Shown: piece after piece, positions 24-22,697 of the stretch
Layout of the letters: every line of letters begins with the position of its first letter
How positions within the stretch are numbered: position 1 is the first letter of the stretch
NCBI RefSeq assembly: GCF_037055355.1
Contig: NZ_CP146350.1
Span: 7,029,001-7,093,000, forward strand
Source: Streptomyces sp. DG1A-41
GTDB taxonomy: Bacteria; Actinomycetota; Actinomycetes; Streptomycetales; Streptomycetaceae
DNA length: 64,000 nucleotides
Direction of reading: 5' to 3'
Notes under the pieces: generated by a model
Databases searched by the model: none
What the model saw: the letters and a program-made list of their open reading frames with translations, nothing else
What the model was told of the DNA's origin: nothing
Program-made: the position numbers and the translations under genes

Positions 24-1145
24 GTGGTTTCACCGGTGGGGAAGGTGCGTGAGCCCGTGCTCGACCGCACGCAGGACACGGCGACGGGCGTGGGCAGCGC
101 CCTGCTCCGGCAGGGGCAGCGGATCAACTCGGCGCTCGTCGTGGACCGCCGGCTGGGGGAGGGCGCCTTCGCCGAGGTCTACCGGGTGCGGCACCACATC
201 CTCGGTTGGCAGGCCCTGAAGCTGTTCAAGCACGTGGCCTCGTTGGAGGCGACGTCCCGGATGCTCGACGAGGCCCGGATCCTGTCCACCCTCGGGCACC
301 CCAACATCATCCGGGTGTTCGACGCGGGCACCGTGCAGACCTCCGAGGGCGTGCGCGGCTACATCACCATGGAGTACGTGGCGGGCGGCAGCCTGGAGCG
401 GCTGATGGAGTCCCACGCGGGCGTGGTGCCCGTCGGCGAGGTGGCCGCCGTGCTCCGGCAGGCCGCCGAGGGACTCGCCGTCGCCCACGAGCGGCCGCAC
501 CCCATCGTCCACCGCGACCTGTCCCTGGCCAACGTGCTCATCACCTACGACGAGACCGGGCTGCGCGTGAAGGTGAGCGACTTCGGCCTGGCCAAGGAGA
601 CCGACCCGGGCACCATGGCGGCCAGCGCCCAGGGCACCGTCGCCTACATGCCGCCCGAGGTGCTGCGGCGCGGCAAGGGCTACGGGTGCCCGGGGGACGT
701 GTGGGCCCTGGGCACCATCGTGTACTTCCTGCTCACCGGGCACTTCCCGTACGACGGCGGCGACCCGGTGCAGTCCTTCTCCCTGGAGCGGTTCACCCGG
801 CCGTTGCAGCCGCCCCGCGCCTTCAACGACGACGTGGGCCCCGAGCTGGACCGGCTGGTCACCGACATGCTGCGGATCGACCCGGCCGAGCGGCCCGCCA
901 CCGCCCGTGCCGTCGCCGACCGCGCGTCCGGCCTGCGTCCGGCGCCCGGCCCCGAAGCCGCCGGTACGGCCGAGCCGGCCGAGTCCGCCGACGCACTGGT
1001 CCGGGAGGCCACCGCGCTCTCCCGGGTGCCCGGCAAGCTCGGCGAGGCCGCCGACCTGCTGGAGGAGACCATCAGCCGCTATCCGCTGTTGCGGGAGCGG
1101 CATCTGACACGGCTCATGACCTGGCGCCGGGGGGTGATCATGTGA
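24..1145 (+). CDS. Cytoplasmic Ser/Thr protein kinase (PknB-like), first gene of chaperone cluster
   Basis: Predicted Hanks-type kinase of 373 residues. Visible are the glycine loop GEGAFAEV (about 45-52), the ATP lysine in ALKLF (K66), the helix-C glutamate, the catalytic loop HRDLSLAN (163-170), DFG (186-188) and PPE (210-212). The lysine that normally follows HRDL is serine here (S167), unusual for a bacterial kinase. No membrane segment is seen; the last 80 residues are Ala/Glu-rich and may form TPR-like helices. The stop overlaps the next start (GTGA), so it is translationally coupled to the J-like gene and heads a run of five co-oriented genes. The start is uncertain: the frame is open to the window edge, with GTG at 24 and GTG at 45 both possible. 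Family certain; substrate unknown. Confidence 0.9.
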   Translation: MVSPVGKVREPVLDRTQDTATGVGSALLRQGQRINSALVVDRRLGEGAFAEVYRVRHHILGWQALKLFKHVASLEATSRMLDEARILSTLGHPNIIRVFDAGTVQTSEGVRGYITMEYVAGGSLERLMESHAGVVPVGEVAAVLRQAAEGLAVAHERPHPIVHRDLSLANVLITYDETGLRVKVSDFGLAKETDPGTMAASAQGTVAYMPPEVLRRGKGYGCPGDVWALGTIVYFLLTGHFPYDGGDPVQSFSLERFTRPLQPPRAFNDDVGPELDRLVTDMLRIDPAERPATARAVADRASGLRPAPGPEAAGTAEPAESADALVREATALSRVPGKLGEAADLLEETISRYPLLRERHLTRLMTWRRGVIM

Positions 1146-2410
1146 CCACGCCGGTAAGGGAGTTCGACCGCTTCGAGGAACTTGCGGGCACACAGCTGTA
1201 CCGCAGGAACGTCTTCGCCGTCACCGGCCTGCCCACCGGCGCGAGCGGACCGGCCGTGCGGCGCCACCGGCAGAAGGCGGAGGCGCGGCTGGCCGTCGAG
1301 GACAGCTGGCCCGGAGCCCCGGACCTGGCCCCGGCCGGCGGCTACGGCAAGGACGAGGTGCGGGCCTCCTTCGAGGGCCTCCAGGACCCGCGCCGGCGCA
1401 TGGTCGACGAGCTGCTGTGGCTGTGGGGCACCCCGGACTCCGGCTGCGAGTGCGACCCGGACGTGCACGAACGGCACGACGCCGCCGTGCTGCTGCACGC
1501 CCGGGTGCTGGAGGCGGAGGCCGGGAGGCGCCCGGTGCCCGTCGAGCAGCGGGCGTCCATGTGGGAGGACGTGGTGTCCGCCTGGGGTCGCCTGCTGGCG
1601 GACGGGGCGCTGCGGCAGCACGTCCGGCACCGGATCCGGGCGCTCGGCGACCCCCGGCTCGACGAGGACGCGGCCGACGACCTCCTGGCCCGGCTGCCGC
1701 GGCTGCTCGTGTCCCCCTTCCCCCAGCTCTTCGCCGACCGGGCCACCGCGAACCGCCTGACGTTCGTCTGCTCGGCCTGGACCGGGTTTCCGCCCTTCGC
1801 CGGCCCGTTCTCCGAGCTGTTCGAGCGCGCGGTGGAAGAGGCGTACGAGAAGATCCACGGCGACCTGCTGACGGCGGAGCGGGAGCGCGAGGCCCACCAC
1901 TACCGCGAGGCGTTCCTGCTCCTGCGCGACCGGGTCGTGCCCGGCTTCGAGGACATGGCGCCGCTCCGACCGTTCGTCTCCGACTGGCGCTACGACGAGA
2001 TCGCCCACGTCGTCGCCGTCGGCCTGAACAACCTCGCGGTGGAACTCCTCGGCGTCTGCGTGCACCGCCCGCCCAGCGCCACCTGGCGCGAGGAGATGCT
2101 CTGGCTCGCGGAGAAGGCGTACGAGATCGGCCCGGACCGTGACTCGGCCGGGCTGAAGGAGAACTGGGAGACGATCTACGACCACCTCACGGGCACCGGC
2201 CGCCGCCCCGCGCGGGCCAGGCCGTTCCCTTGGAGGGCGTTCCTCCTGGTGCTCGTGTTCGTCGGCGGCGCGCTCAGCCATCTGATCGAGGCCTTCGGCT
2301 TCCTCCCCGTGCTCTTCATCGGACTCGCCGTCCTCGGTGTCGTCGGCCACATCGTGCGGTTCCTGGCGTGGCTGGCGGACGGCGTACGCAGCGGACGGAG
2401 AAGAAAATGA
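1142..2410 (+). CDS. Divergent J-domain-like membrane protein (J1)
   Basis: 422-residue protein, not assignable to a named family with certainty. Its N-terminal 110 residues (YRRNVFAVTG, then a helix ending in DPRRRMVDELLWLW) resemble a J domain that has lost the HPD tripeptide. It is followed by a conserved CxC pair (GCECDP) and a central helical region. The C-terminus has about two hydrophobic segments (roughly residues 360-400) and a basic tail, so it should be membrane anchored. Two paralogues in the window share LYRRN, CxC, LFNN and the C-terminal layout. Start GTG 1142 overlaps the kinase stop, and the stop overlaps the GrpE-like start. Placement between a kinase and GrpE/Hsp70 genes supports a co-chaperone role, which is inference. 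Confidence 0.75.
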   Translation: MTTPVREFDRFEELAGTQLYRRNVFAVTGLPTGASGPAVRRHRQKAEARLAVEDSWPGAPDLAPAGGYGKDEVRASFEGLQDPRRRMVDELLWLWGTPDSGCECDPDVHERHDAAVLLHARVLEAEAGRRPVPVEQRASMWEDVVSAWGRLLADGALRQHVRHRIRALGDPRLDEDAADDLLARLPRLLVSPFPQLFADRATANRLTFVCSAWTGFPPFAGPFSELFERAVEEAYEKIHGDLLTAEREREAHHYREAFLLLRDRVVPGFEDMAPLRPFVSDWRYDEIAHVVAVGLNNLAVELLGVCVHRPPSATWREEMLWLAEKAYEIGPDRDSAGLKENWETIYDHLTGTGRRPARARPFPWRAFLLVLVFVGGALSHLIEAFGFLPVLFIGLAVLGVVGHIVRFLAWLADGVRSGRRRK

Positions 2411-2937
2411 GCTCCCCTTCCCGCCGGGGCAACAGGACCGGCCGGGTGCGCGCCGTCCTCGGCCAGTTGCGCCACCCGCCCGAGTTCCGCGTCCCGCCGC
2501 CGTTCCTCGACACCGGCCAGGCCGACTGGGTCGCGGACGTACTCGCCGACGTCGGGACGGCCACCGAGGAACCCGCTCAGGACGGCGCGGACGCCGGCAC
2601 GCTGCTCGCCGCCGCCACCGGCCTCTGGCGCGCCCAGCGCAAGCTGAACCAGCGCGCCGGCGAACTGTCGGCCGCGGACCTCAGGCAGGTGCGCCGCTAC
2701 GTCCAGGCCGGCCGGCAGGCACTCGCCGACGGCGGACTGGAGATCCAGGAACACGACGGCGCGCCCTTCGACCCGGGCCAGTCCCTCGAAGTCCTCGCCT
2801 TCCAGGACGAACCCGGCCTGACCCACGAGGTGGTGCTGGAGACCCTGCGGCCCACCGTCTACTACCGCGGCGAGCGGATCCAGATGGGGCAGGTCGTCGT
2901 CGGCCGGCCCGCACCCGGCCCCACCCACGGCATGTGA
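2407..2937 (+). CDS. GrpE-like nucleotide exchange factor
   Basis: 176 residues, starting with ATG that overlaps the preceding stop (ATGA). A helical N-terminal part (about 50-110) is followed by a compact beta-rich end containing LEVLAFQDEPGL and YRGERIQMGQVVVGRP. That end resembles the GrpE beta wing (canonical form G..LRPA.V.V). GrpE releases ADP from Hsp70, which fits the position directly upstream of the Hsp70 gene. It is shorter and more divergent than housekeeping GrpE, which sits with dnaK elsewhere in streptomycetes, so it is probably dedicated to this cluster. Confidence is moderate because helical GrpE regions are weakly conserved. Confidence 0.7.
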   Translation: MSSPSRRGNRTGRVRAVLGQLRHPPEFRVPPPFLDTGQADWVADVLADVGTATEEPAQDGADAGTLLAAATGLWRAQRKLNQRAGELSAADLRQVRRYVQAGRQALADGGLEIQEHDGAPFDPGQSLEVLAFQDEPGLTHEVVLETLRPTVYYRGERIQMGQVVVGRPAPGPTHGM

Positions 2938-2958: not shown

Positions 2959-5463
2959 ATGCGCGAGACCATCGACTTCGGCATCGACCTCGGCACCACC
3001 AACAGCGCCATCGCCGTGGCGGACGACGACGGCGTACGCGTCATCAAGAACAACGACGGCTGGGACTGCACCCCGTCCGCCGTGTGGATGCCCAAGCCGG
3101 ACGTGATCCACGTGGGCCGCCGTGCCCGTGAGCGCACCGACACCCAGCCCGACGACGCCCACGCCGAGTTCAAGCTGGAGATGGGCGTGGCCGGATACCA
3201 CCGGCGGTTCGCCCGCGCGGGGCTGTCCCTCACCCCCGAGCAGCTCTCCGCCGAGGTGCTCAAGTCCCTGCGCCAGGACGCCGCGCACGACACCGGCAGC
3301 CCGCCGGAGGCGGCCGTGATCACCGTGCCCGCCTCCTTCGCGCTGCACCAGAACAGCGCCACGTCCGCCGCCGCGGCCCTCGCCGGACTCGGCGAGCACT
3401 GCCCCCTGGTCCAGGAACCGACCGCCGCGGCCATCGCGTACGGCGTGCAGGACGCCTCCGAGTCCACCCACTGGATGGTGTTCGACCTGGGCGGCGGCAC
3501 CTTCGACGCGGCCGTGATGAGCAAGCGCGACGGTGAACTCCAGCTGCTCCAGCACGCCGGTGACCCGCGCCTGGGCGGCAAACTCATCGACTGGGCCATC
3601 GTGGAGGACCTGCTCGTCCCCGCCGTCCGGCGCGACCTCGGGCTGCCGGACTTCGCCCGGCGCAACAACCGGTGGCGGGCCAACTTCGCCAAGCTCAAAC
3701 TCGCCGCGGAGGACGCCAAGATCGCGCTGTCGCGGCGCGCCTGCTACGACATCGCCGTCGACCTCTCCGACGGCGAAGGCGGCACGGCCCCCTTCGAGTT
3801 CAGCCTCACCCGGGGCGCCCTCGACGACCTCGCCCAGCCCTTCTACGCCCGCGCGGTCAAGCTCTGCCGGGACGCCCTCGCGGAGAGCTCGCTGCGGCCC
3901 GACCACATCGACCGGCTGCTGCTCGTCGGCGGGGCGACCCTCGCCCCGGGGCTGCGCGACCTGCTGGCCGATCCCGTGGAGGGCCTGGGCATCCAGCTCG
4001 ACCACACCCAGGACCCGACCACCGTGGTGGCGCGCGGGGCCGCCGTCTTCGCCCGTACGGTGCGGATGCCGAGCAAGCCGCGCACGGCGGCGCCGGGCGA
4101 GTTCACCGTGGAACTCCACTACGAACCCCAGTCCCTGGAGACCACCGGCATCCCCGTCTCCGGCCGGATCAACGGCGGCACCGCCGTGCCCGACTGGACC
4201 CGTTACACCGTCACCCTCACCAACCCCGACGGCCACCCGCCCTTCCGGGGACCGCAGACCACCCTCACCCCCGACGGCGCCTTCTACACCGAGGTGTCCA
4301 TCGACTCCGGCACCCGGTCCCGGTTCACCGTGGAACTCTCCGACGGCACCGGCACCCGGCAGCGGCTCGCCCCGGACACCCTGTCCATCACCCACGCCCA
4401 GGTGCTGCCCGGCGACGCCGTGCTCACCAGCACGCTGGGCATCGGCAAGGCCGACGGCTCCTTCGCGCCGATGCTGCGCAAGGGCACCGCCCTGCCGACC
4501 TCGATCACGAAGACGTTCGAGACGTCCATCCCGCTGCGCCGCTCCCAGCCGGACGCCGTCATCCGCATCCCGCTGCTGGAGGGCGAACGCCGGCGCGCCG
4601 ACCGCAACACCCGGGTCGGGCTGCTGGAGATCCGGCCCCGGGACGTCCGCTTCGACCTGCCCGCGCAGACGCCCGTCGAGGTGACCTTCGAGATCAGCGC
4701 CTCCAACCGGGAAGTCACCGTCACCGCCGACATCCCCGTCGCCGACGCCCAGTTCGAGGCCACCATCGACCGCTCCCAGCTGGTGGCGCCCACGCACGAA
4801 GAGCTGGTCGACCGGCTGCACGACCTGGAGCAGCGCACGCACTCCCTGCGGGAACGCGCCGAGGAGGTGCACTCCGAGCAGGCCCTGTCCCAGCTCGACG
4901 ACCTGTCCGACGAGAAGGCCTTCGTCCATCTGCGCAAGGAGGTCGACGCGGCGGCCGTCGACACGGGGGCGGCCGGTACGAGCGACCGGCGCATCCGCGA
5001 CCTGGAGGCCCAGCTCGACGACGTCGAGGAGGCCATCGACATTCCCGGGCTCCAGCACGAGCTGTGGGACCTCCTCAACAGCTGCGAGGATCTCATCGAA
5101 CAGACCGGCGGCGGCCCGGCCGAACGCCGCGAGCTGGAGAACCTCCGCACCCGCGCGACCAGCGCCGGCGAGGACGGCAGCCCGGCCGGGCTGCGTCGGC
5201 TCGCCGACCGGGTGCGGGACTTCCAGGTCGATCTGCTGCGCCGCAGCGACCAGTGGGACTTCCTCGTCTTCCACTCCCTCGTCGAACTGCGCGACGAGAT
5301 GACCTCGCGCGCCCAGGCGGACGCCGCGATCGCCGACGGCCGCCGAGCCGTCGCCGCGGGCGACCGCACGGCCCTGTCCGCCGTCAACCAGCGCCTGCGC
5401 CGCCTGCTCCCTCCGGGGGTCTCGGAGGAGCGGCGGATCGGCGGGGTGCAGGAGAGCCGGTGA
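2959..5463 (+). CDS. Hsp70-like protein with extra beta-rich domain and C-terminal coil
   Basis: 834 residues, about 200 longer than DnaK. The actin-fold ATPase is intact: GIDLGTTNS (7-15), FDLGGGTFDA, and the adenosine motif LLVGGATLAPGLRDLL. After the ATPase (about residue 375) there is an extra Ig-like segment (about 385-480, FTVELHYEP...TRYTVTLTNPDG). A substrate-binding-like beta domain follows (LTSTLGIG, NTRVGLLEI, VEVTFEISASN), then a long charged helical tail (about 610-834). The start ATG has a good AAGGAG ribosome site. Coupling with a GrpE-like and J-like gene indicates a complete but non-housekeeping chaperone set under kinase control. Client unknown. Confidence 0.9.
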   Translation: MRETIDFGIDLGTTNSAIAVADDDGVRVIKNNDGWDCTPSAVWMPKPDVIHVGRRARERTDTQPDDAHAEFKLEMGVAGYHRRFARAGLSLTPEQLSAEVLKSLRQDAAHDTGSPPEAAVITVPASFALHQNSATSAAAALAGLGEHCPLVQEPTAAAIAYGVQDASESTHWMVFDLGGGTFDAAVMSKRDGELQLLQHAGDPRLGGKLIDWAIVEDLLVPAVRRDLGLPDFARRNNRWRANFAKLKLAAEDAKIALSRRACYDIAVDLSDGEGGTAPFEFSLTRGALDDLAQPFYARAVKLCRDALAESSLRPDHIDRLLLVGGATLAPGLRDLLADPVEGLGIQLDHTQDPTTVVARGAAVFARTVRMPSKPRTAAPGEFTVELHYEPQSLETTGIPVSGRINGGTAVPDWTRYTVTLTNPDGHPPFRGPQTTLTPDGAFYTEVSIDSGTRSRFTVELSDGTGTRQRLAPDTLSITHAQVLPGDAVLTSTLGIGKADGSFAPMLRKGTALPTSITKTFETSIPLRRSQPDAVIRIPLLEGERRRADRNTRVGLLEIRPRDVRFDLPAQTPVEVTFEISASNREVTVTADIPVADAQFEATIDRSQLVAPTHEELVDRLHDLEQRTHSLRERAEEVHSEQALSQLDDLSDEKAFVHLRKEVDAAAVDTGAAGTSDRRIRDLEAQLDDVEEAIDIPGLQHELWDLLNSCEDLIEQTGGGPAERRELENLRTRATSAGEDGSPAGLRRLADRVRDFQVDLLRRSDQWDFLVFHSLVELRDEMTSRAQADAAIADGRRAVAAGDRTALSAVNQRLRRLLPPGVSEERRIGGVQESR

Positions 5464-6465: not shown

Positions 6466-7022
6466 CTAGCCGCCGGAGACCACCACGACCAGCCCGATGA
6501 TCAGCAGCACCACCACCGACGTCCACACCTTGGCGGCGATGGGGGACGTCCCGTAGTAGATCTCCTCCAGGTGCGTCGCCAAGCTCTTGCGCGGCGGCCG
6601 CCGCACGCCGTACGGCACGGGCGTCCGGCCACCGCCGTACGAGACCTCGTACGGCATCCCCAGGTCTCCCGCCTTGTCGAGCAGCAGCCGGTTGGTGGTG
6701 ATGCGCACCCGTGTCTCCTGGCTCGTGCAGAACTCCTCGGCCAGCTCCAGCAGCCGCAGACCGCGGCCACCGCCACCGGGCGCCAGGGCGATCGCACAGT
6801 TGTTGAACAGGATCGCGGCGGAGTCGCTGAGCCGGTCGACGGCCTCCGGGAGGTCGGGGAGCCCGGCGAGCGCGCCCCGGCGCAGGCGGCGCAGCTCGCG
6901 CAGCAGCGGCGTGGCGGCCTCCAGGGTGCCGGCCGCACCGCGCGCGTCGTTCCGGTCGAGTTGCCGCGCGGCCGTCTCCAGAGCCTTGACGACCGGATCG
7001 AAGGCCGGCTTGGCCTTGTGTC
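6466..7022 (-). pseudogene. C-terminal part of a J-like membrane protein (J2), 5' end lost to island
   Basis: Minus-strand coding sequence homologous to the C-terminal half of the J-like paralogues: LSDSAAILFNNCAIAL, then TTNRLLLDKAGDLGMP, a basic patch, and one C-terminal membrane helix (VWTSVVVLLIIGLVVVV). Similarity begins near KAKPAFDPVVK at about 7022. Upstream of that the reading continues into unrelated sequence, so the J-like N-terminal domain is missing. The stop lies only 5 bases from the convergent TPR-OmpA stop. The break coincides with the left edge of the recombinase island, which is the likely cause. A short protein could still be made from an upstream in-frame ATG (7107). Confidence 0.7.
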
Positions 7023-7027
7023 GTCTT

Positions 7028-7065
7028 CCCTGTTGGATCGGCGTGTTGAAGCGGATCGAACAGGG
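7028..7065. repeat. Inverted repeat at left island edge
   Basis: CCCTGTTGGATC (7028-7039) pairs with GATCGAACAGGG (7054-7065), 11 of 12 positions, across a 14-base spacer. It lies immediately inside the point where similarity of J2 to its paralogues ends. It may be part of the recombinase recognition end. This is a positional argument only. Confidence 0.4.
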
Positions 7066-7171
7066 GTGGATGAGTGTTGGGTTGGCGTGCGTTCTGGGTG
7101 CCGACAACTCGCCGGGTGGCGGGTGATCGGGTGCCTGTTCTGGCTGGGTGGGGGGACCTGGCCGTGCGTGA

Positions 7172-8599
7172 GGATCGCGTTGGGATTCATCCTGGGGATC
7201 CGATTCTTCTTCTCCGGACTACCGGATCGACGAAGTACTGAGCCGGTACCTGTGCCGGTCGTCGTTCGCCCGTCTCGCGCAGGAGACGAAGCGCAACTAC
7301 ACGGATGACTACTGCCTGTTCTTCGATTTCCTGTGGGGCCGCGGGAAGTGGTGGAGCGAGGCGTCGGCGGACGATCTGTGGGACTTCGAGGACTGGCGGA
7401 CCCGCTCGCCGCGGAATCCGTGCCGGGTCGGCGGGGCGCGGTGGAACCGGGGACTGGCCGCGCTCGCGCGGCTGTACGAGTGGGCGGTACAGCGCGAGTA
7501 CGTGCTGACGAACCCGGTGCTGATGCGTACGGTCACCGGCCGGACCGGCGATGTCGTGCTGGTCCCGGCGGCGCGGGCGAAGAACGCGCGCACGAGCGAG
7601 GTGCGCTGGCTGACGCCGCGCGCCTTCCGGCGCTGGGTGGAGGTGGGACTGCGCGGGCACGGCGCGGACGGGCTGCCGGACGCCGGGTGGGCGGGACGGC
7701 TGGCCGACCGCAACGCGGCCTTCGCTGATCTGCTGTTCTCCTCCGGGGTGCGTCTGACGGAGGGGGCCTCGCTGCTGACGCTGGAGGTGCCGCGTCTCCA
7801 GTTGGAGGGCGGCCAGTACTACGCGGGGCGTCTGGCGCGGGTGGTGGCGAAGTCGAAGCGGGCGCGCACGTTCTATGCCTCCTCTGTCGTGGTGGGTGAG
7901 GTTGAGGGGTACGTGGAGTCGTCGCGCGCCCGGGTGGTGCGGCGCGCGCAGGCGGCGGGTCGGTACGACGGGCTGCCGATGCGGCTGGTCACGCACGAGA
8001 CGGGCCGGCGTCGGCGGCTGTTGCACTGGCGGGACCAGGACGGCGTGGTGGGTCAGACGCCCCTGACGGAGGCGACGGTGGATGAGCGGATGAGCTTGTT
8101 CATCGAGGGCCCGGCCGGTCCGGAGCCGTTGTGGCTGTGGCTGAACGAGGCCGGGCTGCCGTTCCACCCGGCATCTTGGGAGGGCGTGTTCCGGACGGCG
8201 AACGAGCGGTGCGAGAGGGTGCTGGCGCCGGTGATGAGCGAGCCGCCGTTTTGCACCCCACACATGGCCCGGCACAGCTTCGCGCTGGTCATGCTCGTAG
8301 TCCTCAACCACGTCATGGACCGGCGCATGGGCCTGACGCCGGAGGAACGGCGGGACTTCCGAATGCTTTACGGCGATCCGTGGCGGATGGTGCAGGACCT
8401 GCTCGGCCACGCCCAGCTGGAGACCACGAAGCACATCTATCTCGCTCCGGTCGCGGACCTGCAGCTGCGGTCGCTGCTGGCCGACTTCCAGCCGGCCGAC
8501 GGTCCGCTCCGTGAGGGGGAGCTGGCGCCGGTGTTCGCGCGGCTGGCGCGGGAGAGCGAGGGCATTCAGGACCTGGACGACAAGCTGGTGGCCCGGTGA
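7172..8599 (+). CDS. Tyrosine recombinase A (Tn554 TnpA / RIT-A type), start codon unclear
   Basis: About 475 residues if read from the in-frame stop at 7169-7171. Conserved tyrosine-recombinase residues are visible: the first Arg in GVRLTEGASLL, HMARHSF (HxxR), LLGHAQLETTKHIYL (His and the catalytic Tyr). The N-terminal core-binding domain (RSSFARLAQETKRNYTDDY..FFDFLWGRG) reads cleanly back to about 7184. No ATG, GTG or TTG exists in this frame before GTG 7502, which would delete that domain. Either a rare start such as CTG 7238 is used, or a small indel separates the true start (for example GTG 7168 in the next frame). The stop overlaps the next gene (GTGA). It catalyses strand exchange for the island together with the next two proteins, by analogy with Tn554. 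Confidence 0.75.
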   Translation, partial: GSRWDSSWGSDSSSPDYRIDEVLSRYLCRSSFARLAQETKRNYTDDYCLFFDFLWGRGKWWSEASADDLWDFEDWRTRSPRNPCRVGGARWNRGLAALARLYEWAVQREYVLTNPVLMRTVTGRTGDVVLVPAARAKNARTSEVRWLTPRAFRRWVEVGLRGHGADGLPDAGWAGRLADRNAAFADLLFSSGVRLTEGASLLTLEVPRLQLEGGQYYAGRLARVVAKSKRARTFYASSVVVGEVEGYVESSRARVVRRAQAAGRYDGLPMRLVTHETGRRRRLLHWRDQDGVVGQTPLTEATVDERMSLFIEGPAGPEPLWLWLNEAGLPFHPASWEGVFRTANERCERVLAPVMSEPPFCTPHMARHSFALVMLVVLNHVMDRRMGLTPEERRDFRMLYGDPWRMVQDLLGHAQLETTKHIYLAPVADLQLRSLLADFQPADGPLREGELAPVFARLARESEGIQDLDDKLVAR

Positions 8600-14495: not shown

Positions 14496-15382
14496 TTACG
14501 CTGCGAGGGCGTGTTCTTGCTCGTGTCGCTGCCGGGTCTCCAGCGGGGTGAGGTAGCCCCAGACTGGATGCCTCCGCAGCCGCTTGCGGTTGTAGAAGGT
14601 CTCGATGAAGGTGAAGATCTCAGCGCGGGCGGTAATCCGGTCGGGCCAGCGGCGGGTGCCGATCTCCGCTTTCAGCAGCGCGAAGAAGCTCTCGGCGGCG
14701 GCATTGTCGTAGCACGAGCCGGTTCGTCCCATGCTCTGCCGCAGCCCCAACCGGCGTATTTCCCGGCGGAGTTCGTCAGCGGTGTACTCCGCTCCGCGGT
14801 CCGAGTGCACGACGCAGCCGGGCTGGAGGTCGCTGCGGCCGGCGGCCATGGTCAGTGCGTCGACCACCAGGGATGCGCGGTGGTGGTCGGCCATCGAGTA
14901 GCCGACGATCTCGCGGGTCGCCAGGTCCAGCCAGGTCGCCAGATACAGCCAGCCCTCGTCGGTGGGGATGTAGGTGATGTCACCGACCAGTTTCTGCCCC
15001 GGGGCGGCGGCCGTGAAGTCGCGGCCGATCAGGTCGTGAGCGGGCACCGCCTTCTTCGCCGGACGGGTCAGCGACCGGCGCTTGCGCCGGGTGACCCCGG
15101 TGATGTCGCGCTCACGCATGATCCGCTCCACTCGCTTGCGGTTGACCCGCCGGTCCAGCCTGCGCAGTTCGGCATGGATGCGCGGCACTCCGTAGGTGCA
15201 CCGGGAGGCGATGTGCAAGACGGTGATCTCGTGGGCCAGGGCGTCGTCGGCGGCCCGGCGCGGACCTGCTCGCCGGTCATCCAGGCGTAGAAGGAGGAGC
15301 GGGCCACCTTCAGCAGCCGGCACAACAGAGCGACTGGGTGGGTGGTCTTCTCCGCCTCGATGAACGCATACACGTCGTTCAT
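14496..15382 (-). pseudogene. IS3 OrfB transposase (rve integrase core), single-base frameshift
   Basis: ATG at 15382 overlaps the OrfA stop (ATGA). The first about 40 residues (MNDVYAFIEAEK, YAWMTGEQVRAG) are in one frame; the rest (AADDALAHEITVLH onward) is one base displaced, with the shift near 15253-15260. The DDE catalytic triad is complete in the second part: VGDITYIPT, VVHSDRGAEYTA and NAAAESFFALLKAE. IS3 elements normally fuse OrfA to OrfB by a programmed -1 shift at their junction, but this break is well inside OrfB and so is a mutation or a sequence error. Repaired length is about 295 residues. Confidence 0.8.
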
Positions 15383-15684
15383 CGATCGCTCTCCTTCGCG
15401 AAGAAGACCGCCGCTTTTCGCAGCACCTCGATCGTCTCGGCCTGCTCACGGTTCTGCCGCCGCAGCCGACGCAGTTCCTCCCGCTCCGCGCTCGTGAGCT
15501 CGCCCGGCACCCCTTGCCCGCGGTCAATCGTGTCCTGCTTGACCCAGTTGCGCAGTCCCTCGGCGCTGACCCCGATCTCCCGGGCCACTTCGGTGACGGT
15601 CTTGCCGGAGGAGCGGACCAGCGCGACCGCGTCGCGCTTGAACTCCTCCGAGTACCGCCTGCTGCGGTTGCTCTTGCTTCCCAC
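15379..15684 (-). CDS. IS3 OrfA (helix-turn-helix transposase subunit)
   Basis: 101 residues. An N-terminal HTH (RRYSEEFKRDAVALVRSSGKT, VTEVAREIGVSAEGLRNWVK) is followed by a leucine-zipper-like coiled coil (EREELRRLRRQNREQAETIEVLRKA). This is the standard OrfA of IS3 elements, which binds the terminal repeats and, fused to OrfB, forms the active transposase. It lies 42 bases inside the right inverted repeat. Its stop overlaps the OrfB start by four bases. Intact. Confidence 0.9.
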   Translation of the reverse strand: MGSKSNRSRRYSEEFKRDAVALVRSSGKTVTEVAREIGVSAEGLRNWVKQDTIDRGQGVPGELTSAEREELRRLRRQNREQAETIEVLRKAAVFFAKESDR

Positions 15685-15796
15685 CTGGCACTACTTCCTC
15701 TGGAACCTCACGTCCCAGTCTCCAGGTGTCCAACATCAAGGGGAAGCTTCACTCCCACGAAACAAGGCGTTCTCGGCCCTGAGCGACAAGTGGTGT

Positions 15797-15813
15797 CGAA
15801 ACCCGTCAACAAA
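15797..15813 (-). repeat. Right terminal inverted repeat of insertion in MFS pseudogene
   Basis: Reverse complement reads TTTGTTGACGGGTTTCG and pairs with the left copy at 13211-13226. Immediately to its right, MFS coding sequence resumes. Confidence 0.5.
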
Positions 15814-15935
15814 ACCAACCCCGCCCGGCGCCGCAAGGTCGCCGTCAGCGGCTACACCACCACCGCCGTGCCCGGTGCCGCGACCGCCGGCGCCACGGCG
15901 GCCTCCCAGGTGGTCCGCAGAGGTCGGGCTGTCTT
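15814..15935 (+). pseudogene. Second fragment of the interrupted MFS transporter
   Basis: Reads NPARRRKVAVSGYTTTAVPG, ATAGATAASQV, typical of the cytoplasmic loop and helix that follow LADDP in the MFS N-terminal fragment ending at about 13190. About 40 codons are legible before the similarity fades. The large C-terminal part of the transporter is absent. This placement is what shows that 13.2-15.8 kb was inserted into a pre-existing MFS gene. Confidence 0.5.
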
Positions 15936-15966
15936 GCTGCAGCCATGGCTGGACACGCGACCTCCC

Positions 15967-15989
15967 GTCGTAACAGAATCAGTTGCGAC
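15967..15989. promoter_or_regulatory. Operator-like imperfect palindrome upstream of Rrf2 gene
   Basis: GTCGTAACAGA and TCAGTTGCGAC form an imperfect dyad around one base. The TAACAGA core is shared with the perfect palindrome in front of the downstream MFS gene. It lies 38 bases before the Rrf2 start, so autoregulation is likely. Confidence 0.55.
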
Positions 15990-16026
15990 ACGAGCGGCCT
16001 CGGCCGCTCCGACGGCGGGAGGTCTC

Positions 16027-16470
16027 ATGAGTGCCAGCAGTCGCATGACCGTGGCCACGCACACGTTGACGTGGATGGCCCTGGTCTGCCCCAAGCGCCC
16101 CGACGGCATCGTGACGTCCGATCAGATCGCTGCCAGCGTCAATACCAACCCTGTCGTCATCCGCCGCGCCCTCGGCAGCCTGCGGGACGCGGGCCTCGTG
16201 GTTTCGCAGCGTGGCCAGGGTGCGGGTTGGAGGCTGGCCCGCGCCCCGGAGTCGATCACCCTGAGGGACGTCTACCTGGCCGTCGAGCCTGATCCGCTCA
16301 TCGCGTTGCACCCCGCCACCCCCAACCAGCAGTGCCCCGTCGGACGCGGCATCCCCCCGGTGCTGCGGGGAGCATACAGTCGCGCAGAAGAGTCGATGAA
16401 AGCCGAACTGGCGGCCGTCAGCGTCGCCGACGTGCTGAGGGAGACGGTTGCCTTGCACTCTGAATCCTGA
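16027..16470 (+). CDS. Rrf2-family transcriptional regulator
   Basis: 148 residues. The winged-helix Rrf2 pattern is clear: MTVATHTLTWMALV, VTSDQIAASVNTNPVVIRRALGSLRDAGLVVSQRGQGAGWRLA, ITLRDVYLAVE. Only one cysteine is present in the region where Fe-S Rrf2 proteins have three, so it should not bind a cluster. It resembles the YwnA/NsrR-like non-iron group. ATG 16027 follows GGGAGG by four bases. Downstream lies an MFS transporter whose promoter has a palindrome related to the one before this gene. The likely role is repressor of itself and of the efflux gene, relieved by a small ligand or electrophile (inferred). Confidence 0.85.
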   Translation: MSASSRMTVATHTLTWMALVCPKRPDGIVTSDQIAASVNTNPVVIRRALGSLRDAGLVVSQRGQGAGWRLARAPESITLRDVYLAVEPDPLIALHPATPNQQCPVGRGIPPVLRGAYSRAEESMKAELAAVSVADVLRETVALHSES

Positions 16471-16521
16471 CCCGCAGTCCATACCGGCCGGTCCCCATGG
16501 ATCGGTCTCTCTTCGAAGCGC

Positions 16522-16546
16522 TGTTGTAACAGATTCTGTTACAACA
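16522..16546. promoter_or_regulatory. Perfect operator palindrome before MFS transporter
   Basis: Arms TGTTGTAACAGA and its exact reverse complement surround a single central T (25 bp). It sits 22 bases before the MFS start and 8 bases before its GGAGG ribosome site, so bound protein would block transcription. The Rrf2 product encoded just upstream is the obvious candidate. Confidence 0.75.
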
Positions 16547-16568
16547 TAAATCCGGAGGTCTCTCCATC

Positions 16569-17765
16569 GTGTACCGGTCGCTTGCCGTCCTTTCCGCCGG
16601 AATGTTCGCCATCGGCACCGACAGCTTCGTCATCGCCGGCATCCTGCCGGACGCGGCGGACTCCCTCGGCGTCCCCGTCGGCACCGCCGGCTGGCTGCTC
16701 ACCGCCTACGCGTTCACCTACGCCGTCCTCGGCCCCGTCATGGCGGCGCTCACTACCCGTTGGCCGCGCCGCACGCTGTTTCTCGCCGGGTTCGCCATCT
16801 TCACCGCCGGCAACCTCATGACGGCCTTCGTGCCCGTCTTCGGCGTAGCCCTGGCCGCGCGGGCGCTCGCCGGGCTCGGCGGCGCCATGGTCACCCCCGC
16901 CGCCGTCGCCGCGGCCGCCGCGCTCGCGCCACCGGAGCGTCGCGGCCGCGCCATCGCCACCGTCATGACCGGCCTCAGCGCTGCGACCGCGCTAGGTGCG
17001 CCCATCGGCACGGCGATCGGCAGCCTCACCGGTAACTGGCGCGCCACCATGCTGTTCGTCTCCGCGCTCGGAGTGCTGGCCGCCGCGGGTATAGCCCTGC
17101 TCCTGCCCGCGATCCCCACGCCCCCGGCAGTCCCGCTGCGTACCCGCGTCGCCCCGCTGGCCGACCGCCGTATCGGCCTGACCCTGCTGACCACGCTCCT
17201 CGTCTACACCGGCCTGTACACCGTCTACTCCTTCATCGGCGAAAGCCTCGACCGCGCCACCGGAGGCAGCGGCACCATTCTTGCCGCCCTGTTGTTCGTG
17301 TGGGGCCTGGCCGCCACCGCCGGAACACTCAGCTCAGGCGGTCTGATCGACCGTTTCGGCGGCCGCCGCATCATCAATGCCGCGATCACCGTGGCCGCGG
17401 TCGACTTCGCGTTGTTGCCATGGACGAGCGCACACCTGCCCTCCACCATCGCGGCACTCCTCGTATGGGGCGTATGCGGATGGGGACTGCTGGCACCGCA
17501 GACCCACCGCCTGATCACCGCCATGCCCACCGCGGCACCCCTGCTCACTGGCCTTGCCTCGGCCATGGTCTACATCGGTGTATCGGTCGCACCCCTGGTC
17601 GGGCAGGCCGGGATGGCATGGTTCGGCGCGCACTGGCTCGGCGCCGTCGGCGCAGTGTTCATCGCGCTCGGCCTCGGGGCGGCGGAAGCGGCACACGCCG
17701 TTATCCACCGACGCGCGACGCAGAGCACGCCCGTGGCACAGGCTCAGCCATTGCCGACCAAGTAG
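16569..17765 (+). CDS. MFS transporter (drug/arabinose efflux type, 12 TM)
   Basis: 398 residues with about 12 hydrophobic helices. It starts directly in TM1 (LAVLSAGMFAIGTDSFVIAGILP), typical of the DHA1/AraJ efflux group. Motif A in loop 2-3 is recognisable as TTRWPRRTLFLAG, and the antiporter motif C region as GLSAATALGAPIGTAIG. GTG 16569 follows GGAGG at good spacing. It is probably co-regulated with the Rrf2 gene through the palindrome in its leader and is followed by an acetyltransferase gene 44 bases on. Substrate unknown; export of a toxic small molecule is the likeliest role. Confidence 0.85.
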   Translation: MYRSLAVLSAGMFAIGTDSFVIAGILPDAADSLGVPVGTAGWLLTAYAFTYAVLGPVMAALTTRWPRRTLFLAGFAIFTAGNLMTAFVPVFGVALAARALAGLGGAMVTPAAVAAAAALAPPERRGRAIATVMTGLSAATALGAPIGTAIGSLTGNWRATMLFVSALGVLAAAGIALLLPAIPTPPAVPLRTRVAPLADRRIGLTLLTTLLVYTGLYTVYSFIGESLDRATGGSGTILAALLFVWGLAATAGTLSSGGLIDRFGGRRIINAAITVAAVDFALLPWTSAHLPSTIAALLVWGVCGWGLLAPQTHRLITAMPTAAPLLTGLASAMVYIGVSVAPLVGQAGMAWFGAHWLGAVGAVFIALGLGAAEAAHAVIHRRATQSTPVAQAQPLPTK

Positions 17766-17809
17766 CGCACTGCCATCAAGAGCCCACGGATAGCGAGGAC
17801 CGAACGACA

Positions 17810-18313
17810 ATGATCACCACGGAACGCCTCCGACTGCGCCCGCTCACCGCCGCTGACACTGATTGGTGGGTGCGTCTCCACGCCGATAACGAGGTCAACC
17901 GGTTCGTCGGCGGCTACACCCACGAGCAGGCCGCAGCGCGCCTGCGCGACATCCAGCAGCAATGGACTGAGCGCGGTCATGGACTGTGTGCCGTCGAACT
18001 GCGAAGCACCGGCGAGACGATTGGACGCTGCGGCCTTAACTGGTGGGAGCAGTTCGGCGAGACCGAGATCGGCTGGACCTTCGCCCGCGCCCACTGGGGC
18101 CGGGGCTACGCCACGGAAGCGGCCCAAGCCGTTCTCACGTGGGGCTTTGGCGCCCTGGGACTCAAGCAGATCACCGCCATGATCCATCACGGCAATGCTG
18201 CCTCATCTGCTGTCGCCCAGCGTCTCGGATTCACGCCCCTACGCGAGGACACGGTCCTTGGCCGCCTCTGCACCGTTTACGCTCTGGCCCGGGACGACTT
18301 CCCCTCCGCCTGA
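17810..18313 (+). CDS. GNAT-family N-acetyltransferase (RimJ/RimL type)
   Basis: 167 residues. Starts MITTERLRLRPLTAADTDWW, with acetyl-CoA motif A in the region IGWTFARAHWGRGYATEAAQAVL and the following LKQITAMIHHGNAASSAVAQRLGF, the standard RimJ/RimL-like layout. ATG 17810 is preceded by GAGGA. It lies downstream of the MFS gene on the same strand with only 44 bases between them, suggesting one transcription unit in which the enzyme modifies, and the transporter exports, the same toxic compound (inference). It is the last cargo gene before the right edge of the island. Confidence 0.85.
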   Translation: MITTERLRLRPLTAADTDWWVRLHADNEVNRFVGGYTHEQAAARLRDIQQQWTERGHGLCAVELRSTGETIGRCGLNWWEQFGETEIGWTFARAHWGRGYATEAAQAVLTWGFGALGLKQITAMIHHGNAASSAVAQRLGFTPLREDTVLGRLCTVYALARDDFPSA

Positions 18314-18414
18314 GCGCAGACCGCCGCCCAGGCAACAGCCCTCACGCGGTCACACCGCCCGTGGAAGGCGGCCGGACGGGGAGTGCGACGGCCCCGCCCG
18401 GCCGCCTGGCACCT
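18314..18414. other. Intergenic space at right island edge
   Basis: Between the GNAT stop and the end of the convergent J3 frame. GC-rich, with no gene. No clear hairpin followed by a T run was seen. Confidence 0.5.
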
Positions 18415-19724
18415 TCACCACACCCACTCGTCGTCGCCGTCCGAGTCACATCCGGCGCCCCGCTCATCACCACTGAGTAGGTTGTTCGGCTTGTCCAATT
18501 CACGCGTCTTGGCTTTGTTCACGAGATTCTCGTGAACAAAGCCACCTGTCCTCAGCTCAACAAGCTGTACTTGACAGAGAACGCACCAGACACCGGCCTC
18601 GTCCAGCCGTGCGCGGTTCTGCTCGATCGTCCGCCGCGTCCCCTCGTACGGCTTCAGCCGCAGCGCCAGGTCCAGCAGGTCGAAGCTCTCCCGGACGGGC
18701 GGGGCCGTGTCCGAGGCGGGGGACAGGGCCACCGCGCAGTTGTTGAACAACAGGGCGGTGGTATCGGAGAGTTGGCCCACGCCCAGCGACATCCCGAAGC
18801 CGGCGAAGGCGGCGAGCCGCTCCACGACCGGGACGACCCGGGCGCGCAGTGCCCCGGCCGCGGCGGTCGCGGCCGTCTTCCGGTCGCGTTCCGAGAAGGC
18901 GCCGGCGAGTTTCTCCCCGTCTCGCGCAGCTCGCTCTCCGCCGACTCGTACAACGGGGTCAACTGCTCCTCCAGCGCCTCCCCGAGGACGCCCCGGCCGG
19001 TCCAGGTCCACTGCGTGCAGGAGCGGGCCAGCCGGGCCGGGTCCTGGGTGCGCGCGGCCAGACCGGCGACGGCCGAGACCAGCACGCGGCGCACCTCGGC
19101 CTCGAGCACCGTCACCGCGGTCTCGGTCAGCCGCTTGTCGTCGAGCGCCACGACCCGGTGCCGCAGATGCGCCCAGACCGCCCGCTGCCCGAGCAGCATG
19201 CGCCACAGCCGTGCCGCGGTCTGCCAGTACCCGTCCTCCGGCCGGCCGGTGTCGCGCCGCGGTCCGCCGCGGCCCTTCTTCTTTCCGGCCGGGCGCTTCG
19301 GCCCACCCGCGGCCCGGCGCCGTGGCGCCTCGCCGCCTCCCAACTCCGCGTCGAGCGCCCGCGCGTGGGCCCGGACCGCCTCGTCGTGCTGCCGGTGCAG
19401 CTCCGGCTCGCACGGACAGGAGGCGTCCGGTGCGTCCCAGAACCAGAACAGCTCGTCGACGATCCGGCGCTGCGGATGGTCGAGCACGTCGAAGGCCGCG
19501 CGGAGTTCCTCCGGCCCGGCCGCGCCGGGCAGCGGCAGCTCACCGGAGGGGCCGACGGCGACCCCGGCCTTCGCGGCCGTGGCGATCTGCTGCCGGCGCC
19601 GGACGATCGTGCGGCGGGCCGCGCAGGTGCTCGCCCCGGTCACTCGGAAGGCGTTGCGGCGGTAGAGCTCCGGGCCGCTCAGCTCCCGCAGCCGTTCGCG
19701 GACGACAGACGCGTCACCGCCCAT
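18415..19724 (-). pseudogene. J-like protein paralogue (J3), frameshifted and 3' end replaced
   Basis: The N-terminal part (19724 down to about 18917) matches J1: PELYRRNAFRVTGAS, DHPQRRIVDELFWFW, and a CxC pair (SCPCEP). At the C run 18914-18917 the conserved frame changes: one base is missing, and LAGAFSERDRKTAATAAAGA continues in the next frame through LSDTTALLFNNCAVAL and NRARLDEAG. After that, near 18590, homology stops. The last 58 residues are unrelated and acidic, so the usual membrane segment has been lost to the island. It starts inside the end of the FHA gene (11-base overlap), so it was the third gene of the minus-strand kinase/FHA/J run. Confidence 0.7.
18511..18543. repeat. Perfect 33-bp palindrome at right island edge
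   Basis: Arm GGCTTTGTTCACGAGA (18511-18526), a single central T, and its exact reverse complement (18528-18543). It lies about 50 bases inside the point where J3 homology ends. A long perfect dyad like this is typical of a recombinase or regulator binding site. A terminator is less likely because no T run follows on either strand. Confidence 0.7.
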
Positions 19725-20565
19725 GGCTACGGCTGCCCCGCGGGCGACCTGTCCTGGAGTCCGGGGTGTCGGAGATGTCGGAGGTGTCGGGGTTGTCGGG
19801 GGCGTCGTCCATCAGGTTGAGGTCCGGCGGCACCAGCGTCGTCGACTCGACCAGGCCCTTGAGCAGGTTGTGCAGCAGGGTGTTGTCGTAGGGCCGCCGC
19901 TCCTCGCTCTTGTCGTGCACCAGCGGGTACTTGAAGCCGGTGCCGTGCAGCCGGTGGCGTACCACCTCGATGCGGTGCTCGATCCTCCGTTCGTTCCAGT
20001 TTCCGTCCGGACGCAGATGGACGAGCTGCCGGGCGGCCATGGAGTACGTCAGGGGCCGCGGGTCCTCCTCGTACAGCAGGTACCGCTGGCCGAGGACGAC
20101 CAGCAGCAGCCGTTCGTCGTCGTCCAGCGCCCAGGTCTCCGGCCGCAGGGTCGCCGCCCGGCGGCGCGACACCGGCCCCCGGTCGTCGTGGTCGGCCACG
20201 TACAGCTCGATCAGGTGCTCGCGGTAGCCGGAGCCCTTCACGAACAGCGGGGTGTAGCCGGTGGCGAGGGGGACCGGCTCGGTGGTGGTGTGCATCATCC
20301 GGCCGCGCGGCAGCCGCACCAGCTGCCGCCCGGTGTTGCGCAGCCACCACTGCCCGTGCAGGTACGTCAGCTCCCCGTGCCGGCGGCTCACCCGCAGGTC
20401 GTCCACGCCGACCTCCAGGTCCACGTCCGGCCGCTCGCCCCGCCCGAAGCGGACGGTCAGTCCCGGACGCGGCGGGGCGCACAGGTCAGCGGTGACCGTG
20501 CGCGCGTGCAGGGTGCCGGGCGCGGTGGGCGCGACACCGCGCGCGAGGCTGGCGGAGAAGGTCAT
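19714..20565 (-). CDS. FHA-domain protein
   Basis: About 283 residues from ATG 20565, chosen because GAGGAGA lies just upstream; an in-frame ATG at 20613 would add 16 residues. The FHA phosphothreonine-binding fold is seen at about 40-100: FGRGERPDVDLEV, then VSRRHGELTYLHGQWWLRNTG. The remaining part (about 120-260) has a conserved helical region (WALDDDERLLLVVLGQRYLL) and a basic wHTH-like segment (NWNERRIEHRIEVVRHRL). It ends in an Asp/Ser/Thr-rich tail that could itself be phosphorylated. It follows a kinase gene and overlaps the J-like gene, so it probably reads phosphorylation by one of the two kinases and passes it to the J/Hsp70 set (inference). Confidence 0.8.
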   Translation of the reverse strand: MTFSASLARGVAPTAPGTLHARTVTADLCAPPRPGLTVRFGRGERPDVDLEVGVDDLRVSRRHGELTYLHGQWWLRNTGRQLVRLPRGRMMHTTTEPVPLATGYTPLFVKGSGYREHLIELYVADHDDRGPVSRRRAATLRPETWALDDDERLLLVVLGQRYLLYEEDPRPLTYSMAARQLVHLRPDGNWNERRIEHRIEVVRHRLHGTGFKYPLVHDKSEERRPYDNTLLHNLLKGLVESTTLVPPDLNLMDDAPDNPDTSDISDTPDSRTGRPRGSRSHGR

Positions 20566-20714: not shown

Positions 20715-22697
20715 TCAGCGGGCGCGCAGTTTCGCGGCCGCGGAGGCGGCGAGCTCGGTGGTCAGATGGCACAGTTCGCCCATGGGCCGTTGCCCGCCGA
20801 CGTGCAGCCGCAGCATCTCGACGGCCGTCTCGGCGTCACGGCCGCCGTACTTCCGGTACGGGACGAAGACCGTGCAGGTGTCGTCGCCGTTGCCCTCCGG
20901 CTCGACGACGGCGTCGTAGCCGCTGAGCCGGACGAGGCGGCCGTCCCGCGCGGACTTGGGCTCGTCGCGGAAGAAGGCGATCTCCGCCTCCAGGTCGTCG
21001 ACGTCGCTGAACCACTCGCAGTCCCAGTCCGCGACCCCGGCCTCCGGCACGTCGGCCTTGATGCCGGGGACGACGGACAGCGCCTCGGCGTCGAGCAGCG
21101 CGCAGGCGCTCCTCCAGACCAGCGAGGCGGCCGGGTAGGGCGGGGAACGGCGGGGCAGCGGCCCGCGGTTCAGGACCTCGGCCGCGCTGCGGGCGGCGGT
21201 GTCGGCGACCGCGCACAGCGCCGCGGCACCGCCCGCCACCGTGCCGTGACCCACGTCGACACGGACCCCTACGAACATGTCGCCGTCGGTGTTGTCTCTG
21301 CTGCTGCCGCCGGCCGCGTCCCGGGACAGCAGCAGCCCGCACTCGCCCCTCTTGGGCGGTGCCTCCCTGACGGCGACGCCCCCGATGGTCCGGACGGGGT
21401 CCGACGCCTCGGGCGGCGAACCCCTGCGCAGCTGGACCGACACGTCGATACGGGACCTGTCGTCCGGGTGGACGAGCACGTCGCAGCGGTCGAAGTTGCC
21501 GTAGTCGACGTCGACTTCGCTCTCCCCGAACCGGCCGAGCGCGTCGGGGTCGGCCAGGGCGCACACGTCGGCGGTGCGCGGATCACCGATCAGGGCCCGC
21601 GTCCCACCGTGCGAGGAATCCTTCGGCAGCTGCCTCCCGGCGGACCCACGGGTGCCGTTCGGGCCGTCACCCTGCTCGTCGCCGTCCCCCGGGACGGCGA
21701 CGAGGCTCAGGACCAGTGCGGCGCCGACGGCGAGGGCGGCCGCGTACAGGGCACGGCGTCGCCGTCGCGGGCGCTCGCCACCGGGGGCGGCGGGCCGGCC
21801 GTTTGGGTCCGGCGTCCCGTGGTCCGCCACGGCCGCCAGCAGCCGCCCGGCCTCGGCCGCGTCGGGGCGCTGCTGTGGGTCGCGCCGCAGCATGGCGCCG
21901 AGCACGGGGTGGAGCGGGCCCACGGTTTCGGTGTCCATCTCGACGACGCCCTGCTCGGCCTTCCAGTACGCCAGACGGTCCTGGTCCTCCCCGGCGGCCC
22001 GTGCCTCGTCACCGTCCGCCTCGGGCTCGCCGCCGCGCGGCGGGGAACCGGTGACGAGGGCGTAGAGGGTGGCGCCCAGGCAGAACACGTCGGAGGCGGG
22101 CCGGGGGACGTTCCCCGGGCCAGTTCGGGGGCGGCGTAGTCCGGGGTGAAGCTGTAGGGCCCGTTGGCCGTGATGGTCTCGCTGCCGCCGGCCCGGTAGG
22201 CGGCACCGAAGTCCAGCAGCTTCGCGGTACCGCGCCGGGTGAGGCCGACGTTCGCCGGCTTGACGTCGCCAGTGGACGATGCCCGCCTCGTGCAACGCGG
22301 CGAGAGAGTCGGCGAGTTGGGCCCCGATCCGGGCCACGCGCTCGGGGCTCATGGGCGGTTGCCGGTCGAGGCCGCCGCCGGGCACGTACTCCATGACGAA
22401 CCAGTACGTCTCGCCCACATCCCCGCCGCCGTCGCCGCCCGTGTCCCCGTCCGGCGGCACCGTGACGACGTCGAACAGCGTCACGACATGCGGATGATCA
22501 CGGAACTTGGCCAGGGCGCGCGGCTCGCCCAGCAGCCGCCGCACCGCGGTCTCGCGGTCGCCCTCGACCCGCTCCGGCTTCAGCGCGACGTCCTGCCCCA
22601 CCACCGTGTCGTGGGCCAGCCACACGTCGCCGCCGCGCCCTGCGCCGATGACCTCCTTGAGGACATAGCGGCCGGCGAACTCGTCTCCGGGACGCAC
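20715..22697 (-). CDS. Receptor-type Ser/Thr kinase; catalytic loop scrambled by paired indels
   Basis: About 660 residues. The kinase N-lobe is normal (IGAGRGGDVWLAHD, DVALKPERV, FVMEYVPGGG). The activation region reads as nonsense between two compensating indels: an extra base at about 22271 and a missing G/C in the run 22113-22116. In the alternative frame between them HGDVKPANV, LLDFGAAY and PYSFTPDYAAPELARG are all present, so the ancestral kinase is complete. After the kinase a single TM (about VGAALVLSLVAV) leads to a roughly 350-residue extracytoplasmic part with several Cys. GTG 22697 has GGGGGAG upstream. As written the protein would be catalytically dead; sequence error is likely. 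Confidence 0.75.
   Translation of the reverse strand: MRPGDEFAGRYVLKEVIGAGRGGDVWLAHDTVVGQDVALKPERVEGDRETAVRRLLGEPRALAKFRDHPHVVTLFDVVTVPPDGDTGGDGGGDVGETYWFVMEYVPGGGLDRQPPMSPERVARIGAQLADSLAALHEAGIVHWRRQAGERRPHPARYREAAGLRCRLPGRRQRDHHGQRALQLHPGLRRPRTGPGNVPRPASDVFCLGATLYALVTGSPPRGGEPEADGDEARAAGEDQDRLAYWKAEQGVVEMDTETVGPLHPVLGAMLRRDPQQRPDAAEAGRLLAAVADHGTPDPNGRPAAPGGERPRRRRRALYAAALAVGAALVLSLVAVPGDGDEQGDGPNGTRGSAGRQLPKDSSHGGTRALIGDPRTADVCALADPDALGRFGESEVDVDYGNFDRCDVLVHPDDRSRIDVSVQLRRGSPPEASDPVRTIGGVAVREAPPKRGECGLLLSRDAAGGSSRDNTDGDMFVGVRVDVGHGTVAGGAAALCAVADTAARSAAEVLNRGPLPRRSPPYPAASLVWRSACALLDAEALSVVPGIKADVPEAGVADWDCEWFSDVDDLEAEIAFFRDEPKSARDGRLVRLSGYDAVVEPEGNGDDTCTVFVPYRKYGGRDAETAVEMLRLHVGGQRPMGELCHLTTELAASAAAKLRAR

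Follow-up and report, generated by a model that had tools for sequence, protein, structure and literature searches.

A candidate membrane-linked Hsp70 signalling module without the usual HPD contacts in Streptomyces sp. DG1A-41

The window considered here, meaning the whole stretch of 64,000 nucleotides that was analysed (bases 7029001–7093000 of the 8.99 Mb, single-contig genome of Streptomyces sp. DG1A-41), opens with a plus-strand operon of five genes (positions 24–6460) that encode, in order, a Ser/Thr kinase (kinase 1), a J-like protein (J1), a GrpE-like protein, an Hsp70, and a protein with tetratricopeptide repeats (TPR), a transmembrane (TM) segment, and an OmpA-like domain. A second set with a J-like gene (J2), an FHA gene, and another kinase gene (kinase 2) lies on the opposite strand. 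An original prediction, made from the letters of the sequence, had described the five genes as overlapping head to tail and had read both sets as a dedicated, phosphorylation-gated membrane chaperone machine. We confirmed all five genes, but only those of the kinase, the J-like protein, and the GrpE-like protein overlap (4 bp each), and the Hsp70 gene is flanked by gaps of 21 and 31 bp. The genes on the 5' side of kinase 1 are apparently unrelated, as judged by eye. What the original prediction observed was largely right and is partly confirmed, and its interpretation is partly supported. Related loci, cited below by L numbers, were sampled with an alignment of the GrpE-like family as bait, which gave 47 loci; with two added, the set comprises 49 loci, the window left out.

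The Hsp70 gene (2959..5463, plus strand) encodes a system-specific protein of 834 amino acids that matches PF00012 (E 1.6e-71). Its AlphaFold2 (AF2) model, with a predicted local distance difference test (pLDDT) score of 86.4, resembles DnaK and BiP in Foldseek and VIA and has the folds of both a nucleotide-binding domain (NBD, residues 1–368) and a beta substrate-binding domain (SBD-beta, about 490–602), with an inserted beta domain (about 380–478) between them and a long helical C-terminus. The genome also encodes two DnaKs, and in a tree built without the Hsp70 of L011, the family of the window Hsp70 clusters apart from both, which bears out the predicted Hsp70 set distinct from housekeeping DnaK. 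According to a 2021 review, D35 of the J-domain HPD motif contacts R167 and Q378 of Hsp70, H33 contacts the linker, and altering the H or the D abolished J-domain stimulation in every system tested (PMC8215388). We checked the corresponding residue columns against E. coli numbering. The R167 column holds P in 32 of 33 family rows and T in the remaining one, and the Q378 column holds F in 27 and Y in six; both DnaKs of the same genome have R at 167 and Q at 378. A linker pattern of the DVLLLD type was found in just two of the 33 rows (Lentzea, as DVLLVD near residue 454, within the inserted stretch), and the NBD and SBD markers lie 148 residues apart in three measured rows but 41 apart in the genome's own DnaKs. 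ARAGORN also called a tRNA-Arg at 5311–5398 on the minus strand, opposite the Hsp70 coding region; this call is likely false.

J1 (1142..2410, plus strand; 422 amino acids) was recognised by hhalign, its AF2 model, and hydropathy, and comprises an HPD-less J-like domain (about residues 20–91), a helical repeat region, and two C-terminal hydrophobic segments. Pfam and NCBIfam gave no J or GrpE match for the J-like and GrpE-like proteins of the window, and neither DnaJ nor GrpE turned up when PDB sequences were searched with profiles of the two families. In hhalign, 46 cut-out N-terminal J-like regions scored 79% (E 1.6e-5, 57 columns) against 30 DnaJ J-domains, which, like the 30 GrpE references used below, come from close relatives and hence hold little diversity; four other families scored at most 0.3%, and 40 column shuffles at most 2.1%. 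The four J-like genes outside these 46 (L029, L038, L043, and L060, out of 50) gave no motif match. The AF2 model of J1 (pLDDT 90.6) has helices at residues 24–28, 36–52, 70–81, and 83–91, which is the order of a J-domain, followed by helical repeats; no J-domain chain was among the matches listed for the whole model in Foldseek and VIA. The HPD motif is present in all 30 real DnaJ J-domains and absent throughout the 50 clustered and the 49 aligned J-like proteins. Because HPD is missing, none of the 33 rows retains R167 or Q378, and a beta domain sits at the place of the linker, the set is not a canonical J-driven machine; with HPD and its Hsp70 contacts gone, the residues contradict the predicted driving of Hsp70 by GrpE and J proteins in the usual way, which is not supported as put.

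Several J-like proteins carry further features. A Septum_form domain (Pfam, E 1.4e-11) makes up the end of the long L042 J-like protein, and five others have a tail that resembles it. In J1 numbering, positions C102, C104, H109, H112, and D113 form a near-invariant CxC....HxxHD pattern on the C-terminal side of the J-like region (at least 90% of 49 rows), possibly a metal site; it was not seen by eye in L055, L062, L064, and L065. The J-like gene of L066 (Edaphobacter, 7580–8521) begins with a response-regulator receiver domain (E 4e-8), and its C-terminal part apparently lies in a separate frame (8610–9896).

The GrpE-like gene (2407..2937, plus strand) encodes 176 amino acids, of which the C-terminal part resembles the GrpE beta domain. 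Of 34 family members, 12 hit PF01025 (GrpE) at E ≤1 (best 0.0028), the window member not among them. The hhalign comparison with 30 real GrpE proteins covered 71 columns of the C-terminal domain and gave 88% (E 3.1e-6); the controls (five other families and 40 column shuffles) reached at most 1.1% each. By similarity, the family thus has the C-terminal beta domain of GrpE. Some of its UniRef entries bear the name GrpE, and in a wider search 670 of 7996 candidates passed, with a precomputed Pfam domain on none of the 120 matches listed. The putative GrpE- and J-likeness rests on family-level profile–profile comparison.

Kinase 1 (24..1145, plus strand; 373 amino acids) matches PF00069 (Pkinase, E 2.3e-47) with intact catalytic motifs, HRDLSLAN and DFG being readable in the translation, and its short C-terminal tail looks alike by eye in the distant homologues of L057 and L066. 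The last gene of the operon starts at 5495 or 5531 and ends at 6460 (plus strand; 321 amino acids, or 309 from 5531), and its TPR-TM-OmpA-like product was assigned from TPR_2, OmpA, and hydropathy. At E ≤0.1, TPR_2 matched all 23 family members and PF00691 (OmpA) matched six of the 23 (best 1.2e-7), the window member being weak (E 0.17). In OmpA-like domains, the GHTD motif serves in binding to the wall. This motif is retained in two of 23 rows and is absent from the window member, and the suggested tie to the cell wall through the OmpA domain is thus doubtful; the linkage to the membrane is supported by the single hydrophobic segment of this protein and those of the J-like protein.

The original prediction had pictured a set of eight genes. 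The neighbourhood does recur in other actinomycetes and beyond, but the eight genes are not the unit: J is present in 47 of the 49 bait loci, Hsp70 in 47, and TPR-OmpA in 42, and 33 loci have a same-strand kinase no more than 6 kb away; 28 loci have J, Hsp70, TPR-OmpA, and kinase together, and 22 have an FHA gene of either of two families (described below) anywhere in the locus stretch. Several misses reflect contig ends (L024, L028, L043, and L045), and L067 (Frankia) is a fragment; others are genuine absences, chiefly those of the kinase in three genera named below. The conserved unit should be a core of four to five genes with an optional phospho-signalling half. All five genes stand in the same order in L057, a metagenome-assembled genome of Verrucomicrobiota, and kinase, J, GrpE, and Hsp70 do so in L066, where TPR-OmpA was not found. 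Across the 37 of 50 loci with all four genes (without J2 of L020 and L025 and the first J of L059), the pairwise distances of J, Hsp70, GrpE-like, and TPR-OmpA proteins correlate with r 0.897–0.936. Occurrence is patchy: counting the genome itself, the J-like gene was found in three of 61 relatives, the GrpE-like gene in at least 15 of 394 genomes of the class, and the Hsp70 (E 1e-200 or better) in at least 15 of 392 Streptomyces, the last two counts resting on at most eight and two scored candidates per genome, respectively, among the rows listed. L062 (Rhodococcus rhodnii) and L064 (Kibdelosporangium aridum) have very similar Hsp70s and flanks, reflecting either a recent transfer or a mislabelled contig, and some Streptomyces copies (L043, L045, and L047) share the layout of the Nonomuraea and Amycolatopsis loci; together with the place of the L043 Hsp70 among these in the tree, this layout suggests transfer between families.

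The second set, placed by the original prediction at 18415–22697, is present and its FHA gene is open, but J2 is split by an insert and the catalytic loop of kinase 2 is out of frame. By blastn, positions 3–7019 and 18582–24036 of the window align at 93–94% with the related locus L020, where they meet at 14570/14571; an element of about 11.56 kb (7020..18581) was therefore inserted within J2. The C-terminal part of J2 lies at 6466..7019 (minus strand), where residues 383–555 of the intact L020 J2 align by tblastn at 7017–6469 (78%), and the N-terminal part lies 11.6 kb away at 18582..19724 (minus strand), where residues 1–270 align in frame −1 (94%) before the match passes to frame −3, with the frame change near 18915 and the end of the alignment at 18582–18586. 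The FHA gene (19714..20565, minus strand; 283 amino acids) matches PF00498 (E 1.4e-4; 22.7 bits against a cut-off of 20.7), with GR and SxxH readable; its C-terminal half appears DNA-binding-like by eye only. Kinase 2 (20715..22742, minus strand, with a start at 22697 or 22742) is one continuous open frame, yet about 22283–22112, where the catalytic loop belongs, encodes unrelated residues; its outer half has a weak DUF3558-like match (E 6.3e-4, below the cut-off). In L020, L022, L023, and L025, kinase 2 has a readable HCD(L/V)KPAN...DFG, the relatives' protein has one hydrophobic segment, and the L020 copy matches Pkinase at E 1.9e-35. For both J2 and kinase 2, the frame changes may be either mutations or sequencing errors.

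The inserted element itself carries integrase-type genes within 7502–12448, in a row of recombinase-type genes (365, 249, 320, 705, and 148 amino acids) that we take to resemble Tn554; of those scanned, only the first and fourth matched Phage_integrase (Pfam), the two E values being 2.2e-6 and 0.03. The element also carries an IS3-type transposase (rve), a major facilitator superfamily transporter, and an acetyltransferase-like gene, and no target duplication was obvious around it by eye.

The predicted linkage of kinases and FHA proteins extends beyond the window. FHA, kinase 2, and J2 are all present in L020 and L025, the only loci besides the window in which J2 adjoins FHA, and J2 is lacking from L022 and L023, where FHA and kinase 2 are present; counting the window, 13 of 50 loci pair an FHA gene with kinase 2. 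A second FHA family, found at ten loci, adjoins a kinase in seven, with L026 having no kinase, and a PP2C gene stands between FHA and kinase in L042 (Nonomuraea typhae) and L039 (Amycolatopsis rhizosphaerae). The one member of this family that was scanned (L034) has an FHA domain (E 2.6e-7) and a Trans_reg_C match below the cut-off (E 0.0044). Both FHA families are linked with kinases, with PP2C in two relatives. Such parts correspond to a writer and a reader of phosphorylation, joined in some loci by an eraser, with possible outside sensors; they may act on the chaperones.

The gene set, its neighbourhood, the co-variation, the hydrophobic segments, and the loss of both the HPD–R167/Q378 contact and the usual linker lead us to propose, with confidence about evenly balanced, that the locus may be a dedicated, membrane-linked Hsp70 signalling module. 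In such a module, the two membrane proteins, J-like and TPR-TM-OmpA-like, would sense the state of the envelope and recruit Hsp70. Without an HPD trigger, this Hsp70 could serve as a nucleotide-dependent clamp or scaffold under the control of its inserted beta domain, of its partners, or of phosphorylation, and the GrpE-like protein would reset it. A member of the module would be the substrate of the kinase or kinases, the FHA protein would read the phosphothreonine and alter transcription, and PP2C, where present, would erase the mark. It is possible, though we hold this tentatively and would not expect it on balance, that the module represents an undescribed form of bacterial signal transduction across several phyla, in which a re-engineered Hsp70, with no HPD input and a beta domain in the linker's place, acts as the switch of a membrane receptor, and kinase, phosphatase, and FHA transcription factor act as writer, eraser, and reader. 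The mechanism itself has a substantial chance of being new.

Several observations weigh against the signalling module. K70, E171, and T199 are retained in this Hsp70 family, and a normal ATPase is therefore possible; another Hsp70 of the same genome, that of L010, has V in the Q378 column and keeps R167. The J-like alignment scores 44.7% in hhalign at full length versus 79% for the cut-out region, and the whole model of J1 had no Foldseek match at E 0.001 or better. A nearby kinase is missing from 16 of the 49 loci, including six of seven Amycolatopsis, all three Lentzea, and both Saccharothrix, and phosphorylation may therefore be optional; in Streptomyces sp. DG1A-41 itself, the phospho-signalling half is damaged. 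Shared genome ancestry may explain part of the distance correlations, which come from a set without an unrelated control family.

Known systems offer partial likenesses to the module. Against housekeeping DnaK-DnaJ-GrpE, the locus differs in the absent HPD, the absent R167 and Q378, the inserted beta domain that replaces the linker, and the separate Hsp70 group. Mitochondrial Pam16 is an HPD-less J-like protein that partners the HPD-bearing Pam18. It shares with the locus an HPD-less J-like protein beside Hsp70 at a membrane, whereas here the operon has no HPD-bearing partner and the Hsp70 itself has lost the HPD contacts. A bacterial Ser/Thr kinase is tied to Hsp70 in a kinase-HSP70 fusion of Pirellula (BMC Genomics 2005 survey, PMC1262709); unlike the module here, that case is a single fusion protein, for which the accessible text of the survey mentions neither co-chaperones nor an FHA partner. 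No paper describing the present gene set was recognised in a literature search that covered a library of PMC papers.

The nearest description found is that of the GAP1-N2 conflict systems, in a paper said to be by Kaur et al. In its accessible text, theme two combines HSP70, GrpE, and FNIII-DnaJ, theme three combines kinase and PP2C, and the themes are called non-overlapping (eLife 2020, PMC7159879). The locus shares with these systems, as that text presents them, an actinobacterial HSP70 accompanied by GrpE and by a protein fused to DnaJ or TPR, a kinase with PP2C (there as a separate theme), and proximity to the membrane; it differs in joining the chaperone and kinase/PP2C/FHA parts at one locus and in a J-like protein without HPD. 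It is conceivable, if somewhat unlikely, that the locus is a defence-like conflict system of this type, in which Hsp70, J, and GrpE set the threshold for an unrecognised or elsewhere-encoded effector. The reported actinobacterial neighbourhoods fit this explanation, as do the patchy distribution, the Hsp70 tree, which shows signs of transfer, and the BTAD/NB-ARC regulators that flank L055 and L049 (scanned) and L062 and L064 (by clustering). The same genome also holds such a conflict-type chaperone cluster at L010 (4643–9995; about 3848.6–3854.0 kb of the genome), where genes for Hsp70, a J-TPR protein (J match below the cut-off, HPD not seen by eye), GrpE, and a caspase-domain protein stand in a row, so the window is not the only place where Hsp70 has been drawn into a special module. 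A further stress-chaperone set lies near the chromosome end at L011 (879–6052; about 8815.9–8821.1 kb), where HtpG-like (by eye), GrpE, and Hsp70 genes are close together. Against a conflict system, no shared effector gene appeared among the clustered neighbours or the ten flanking proteins scanned, and GAP1-N2 (PF20013) was found in none of seven genomes searched, including those of L022, L042, L053, and L055 (one of 14 in the control rings). General Pfam scans of the core proteins showed no GTPase or FNIII, although no search was aimed at a TRAFAC GTPase or an FNIII-repeat protein. Among ten window proteins, PADLOC matched the kinases only (best mad6 E 1.3e-65, PD-T4-6 E 7.6e-54); its models come without cut-offs, and a PD-T4-6 kinase identity is hence compatible with the data, but kinase 1 reached 150.9 bits against the MAD6 model NF047741 (NCBIfam), below the cut-off of 460.

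We regard as improbable that the locus serves envelope protein quality control, with a membrane-held Hsp70 that matures specific membrane or secreted proteins while kinase and FHA set only its amount. The hydrophobic segments, the OmpA-like or Septum_form domains, the complete SBD-beta, and the retained K70, E171, and T199 would suit such a role, but the loss of HPD and R167 speaks against ordinary J-driven folding cycles, as does the patchy occurrence against the role itself. An ordinary spare heat-shock operon is very improbable: Hsp70 and GrpE-like genes do stand together and the genome has extra Hsp70 sets, but the Hsp70 group is separate, HPD, R167, and the linker are gone, kinase and FHA are linked, and the GrpE-like family is its own.

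The locus presents a conserved J-like/Hsp70 pair that has apparently lost its contact on both sides and yet remains neighbouring and co-varying. Nature thus provides a case in which to ask whether an Hsp70 can be driven, or put to use, in the absence of HPD, and how allostery changes when a domain takes the place of the linker. As a signalling module, the locus would also name widespread unannotated families, such as the 670 GrpE-like proteins, and would connect chaperones with Ser/Thr phospho-signalling in multicellular actinomycetes.

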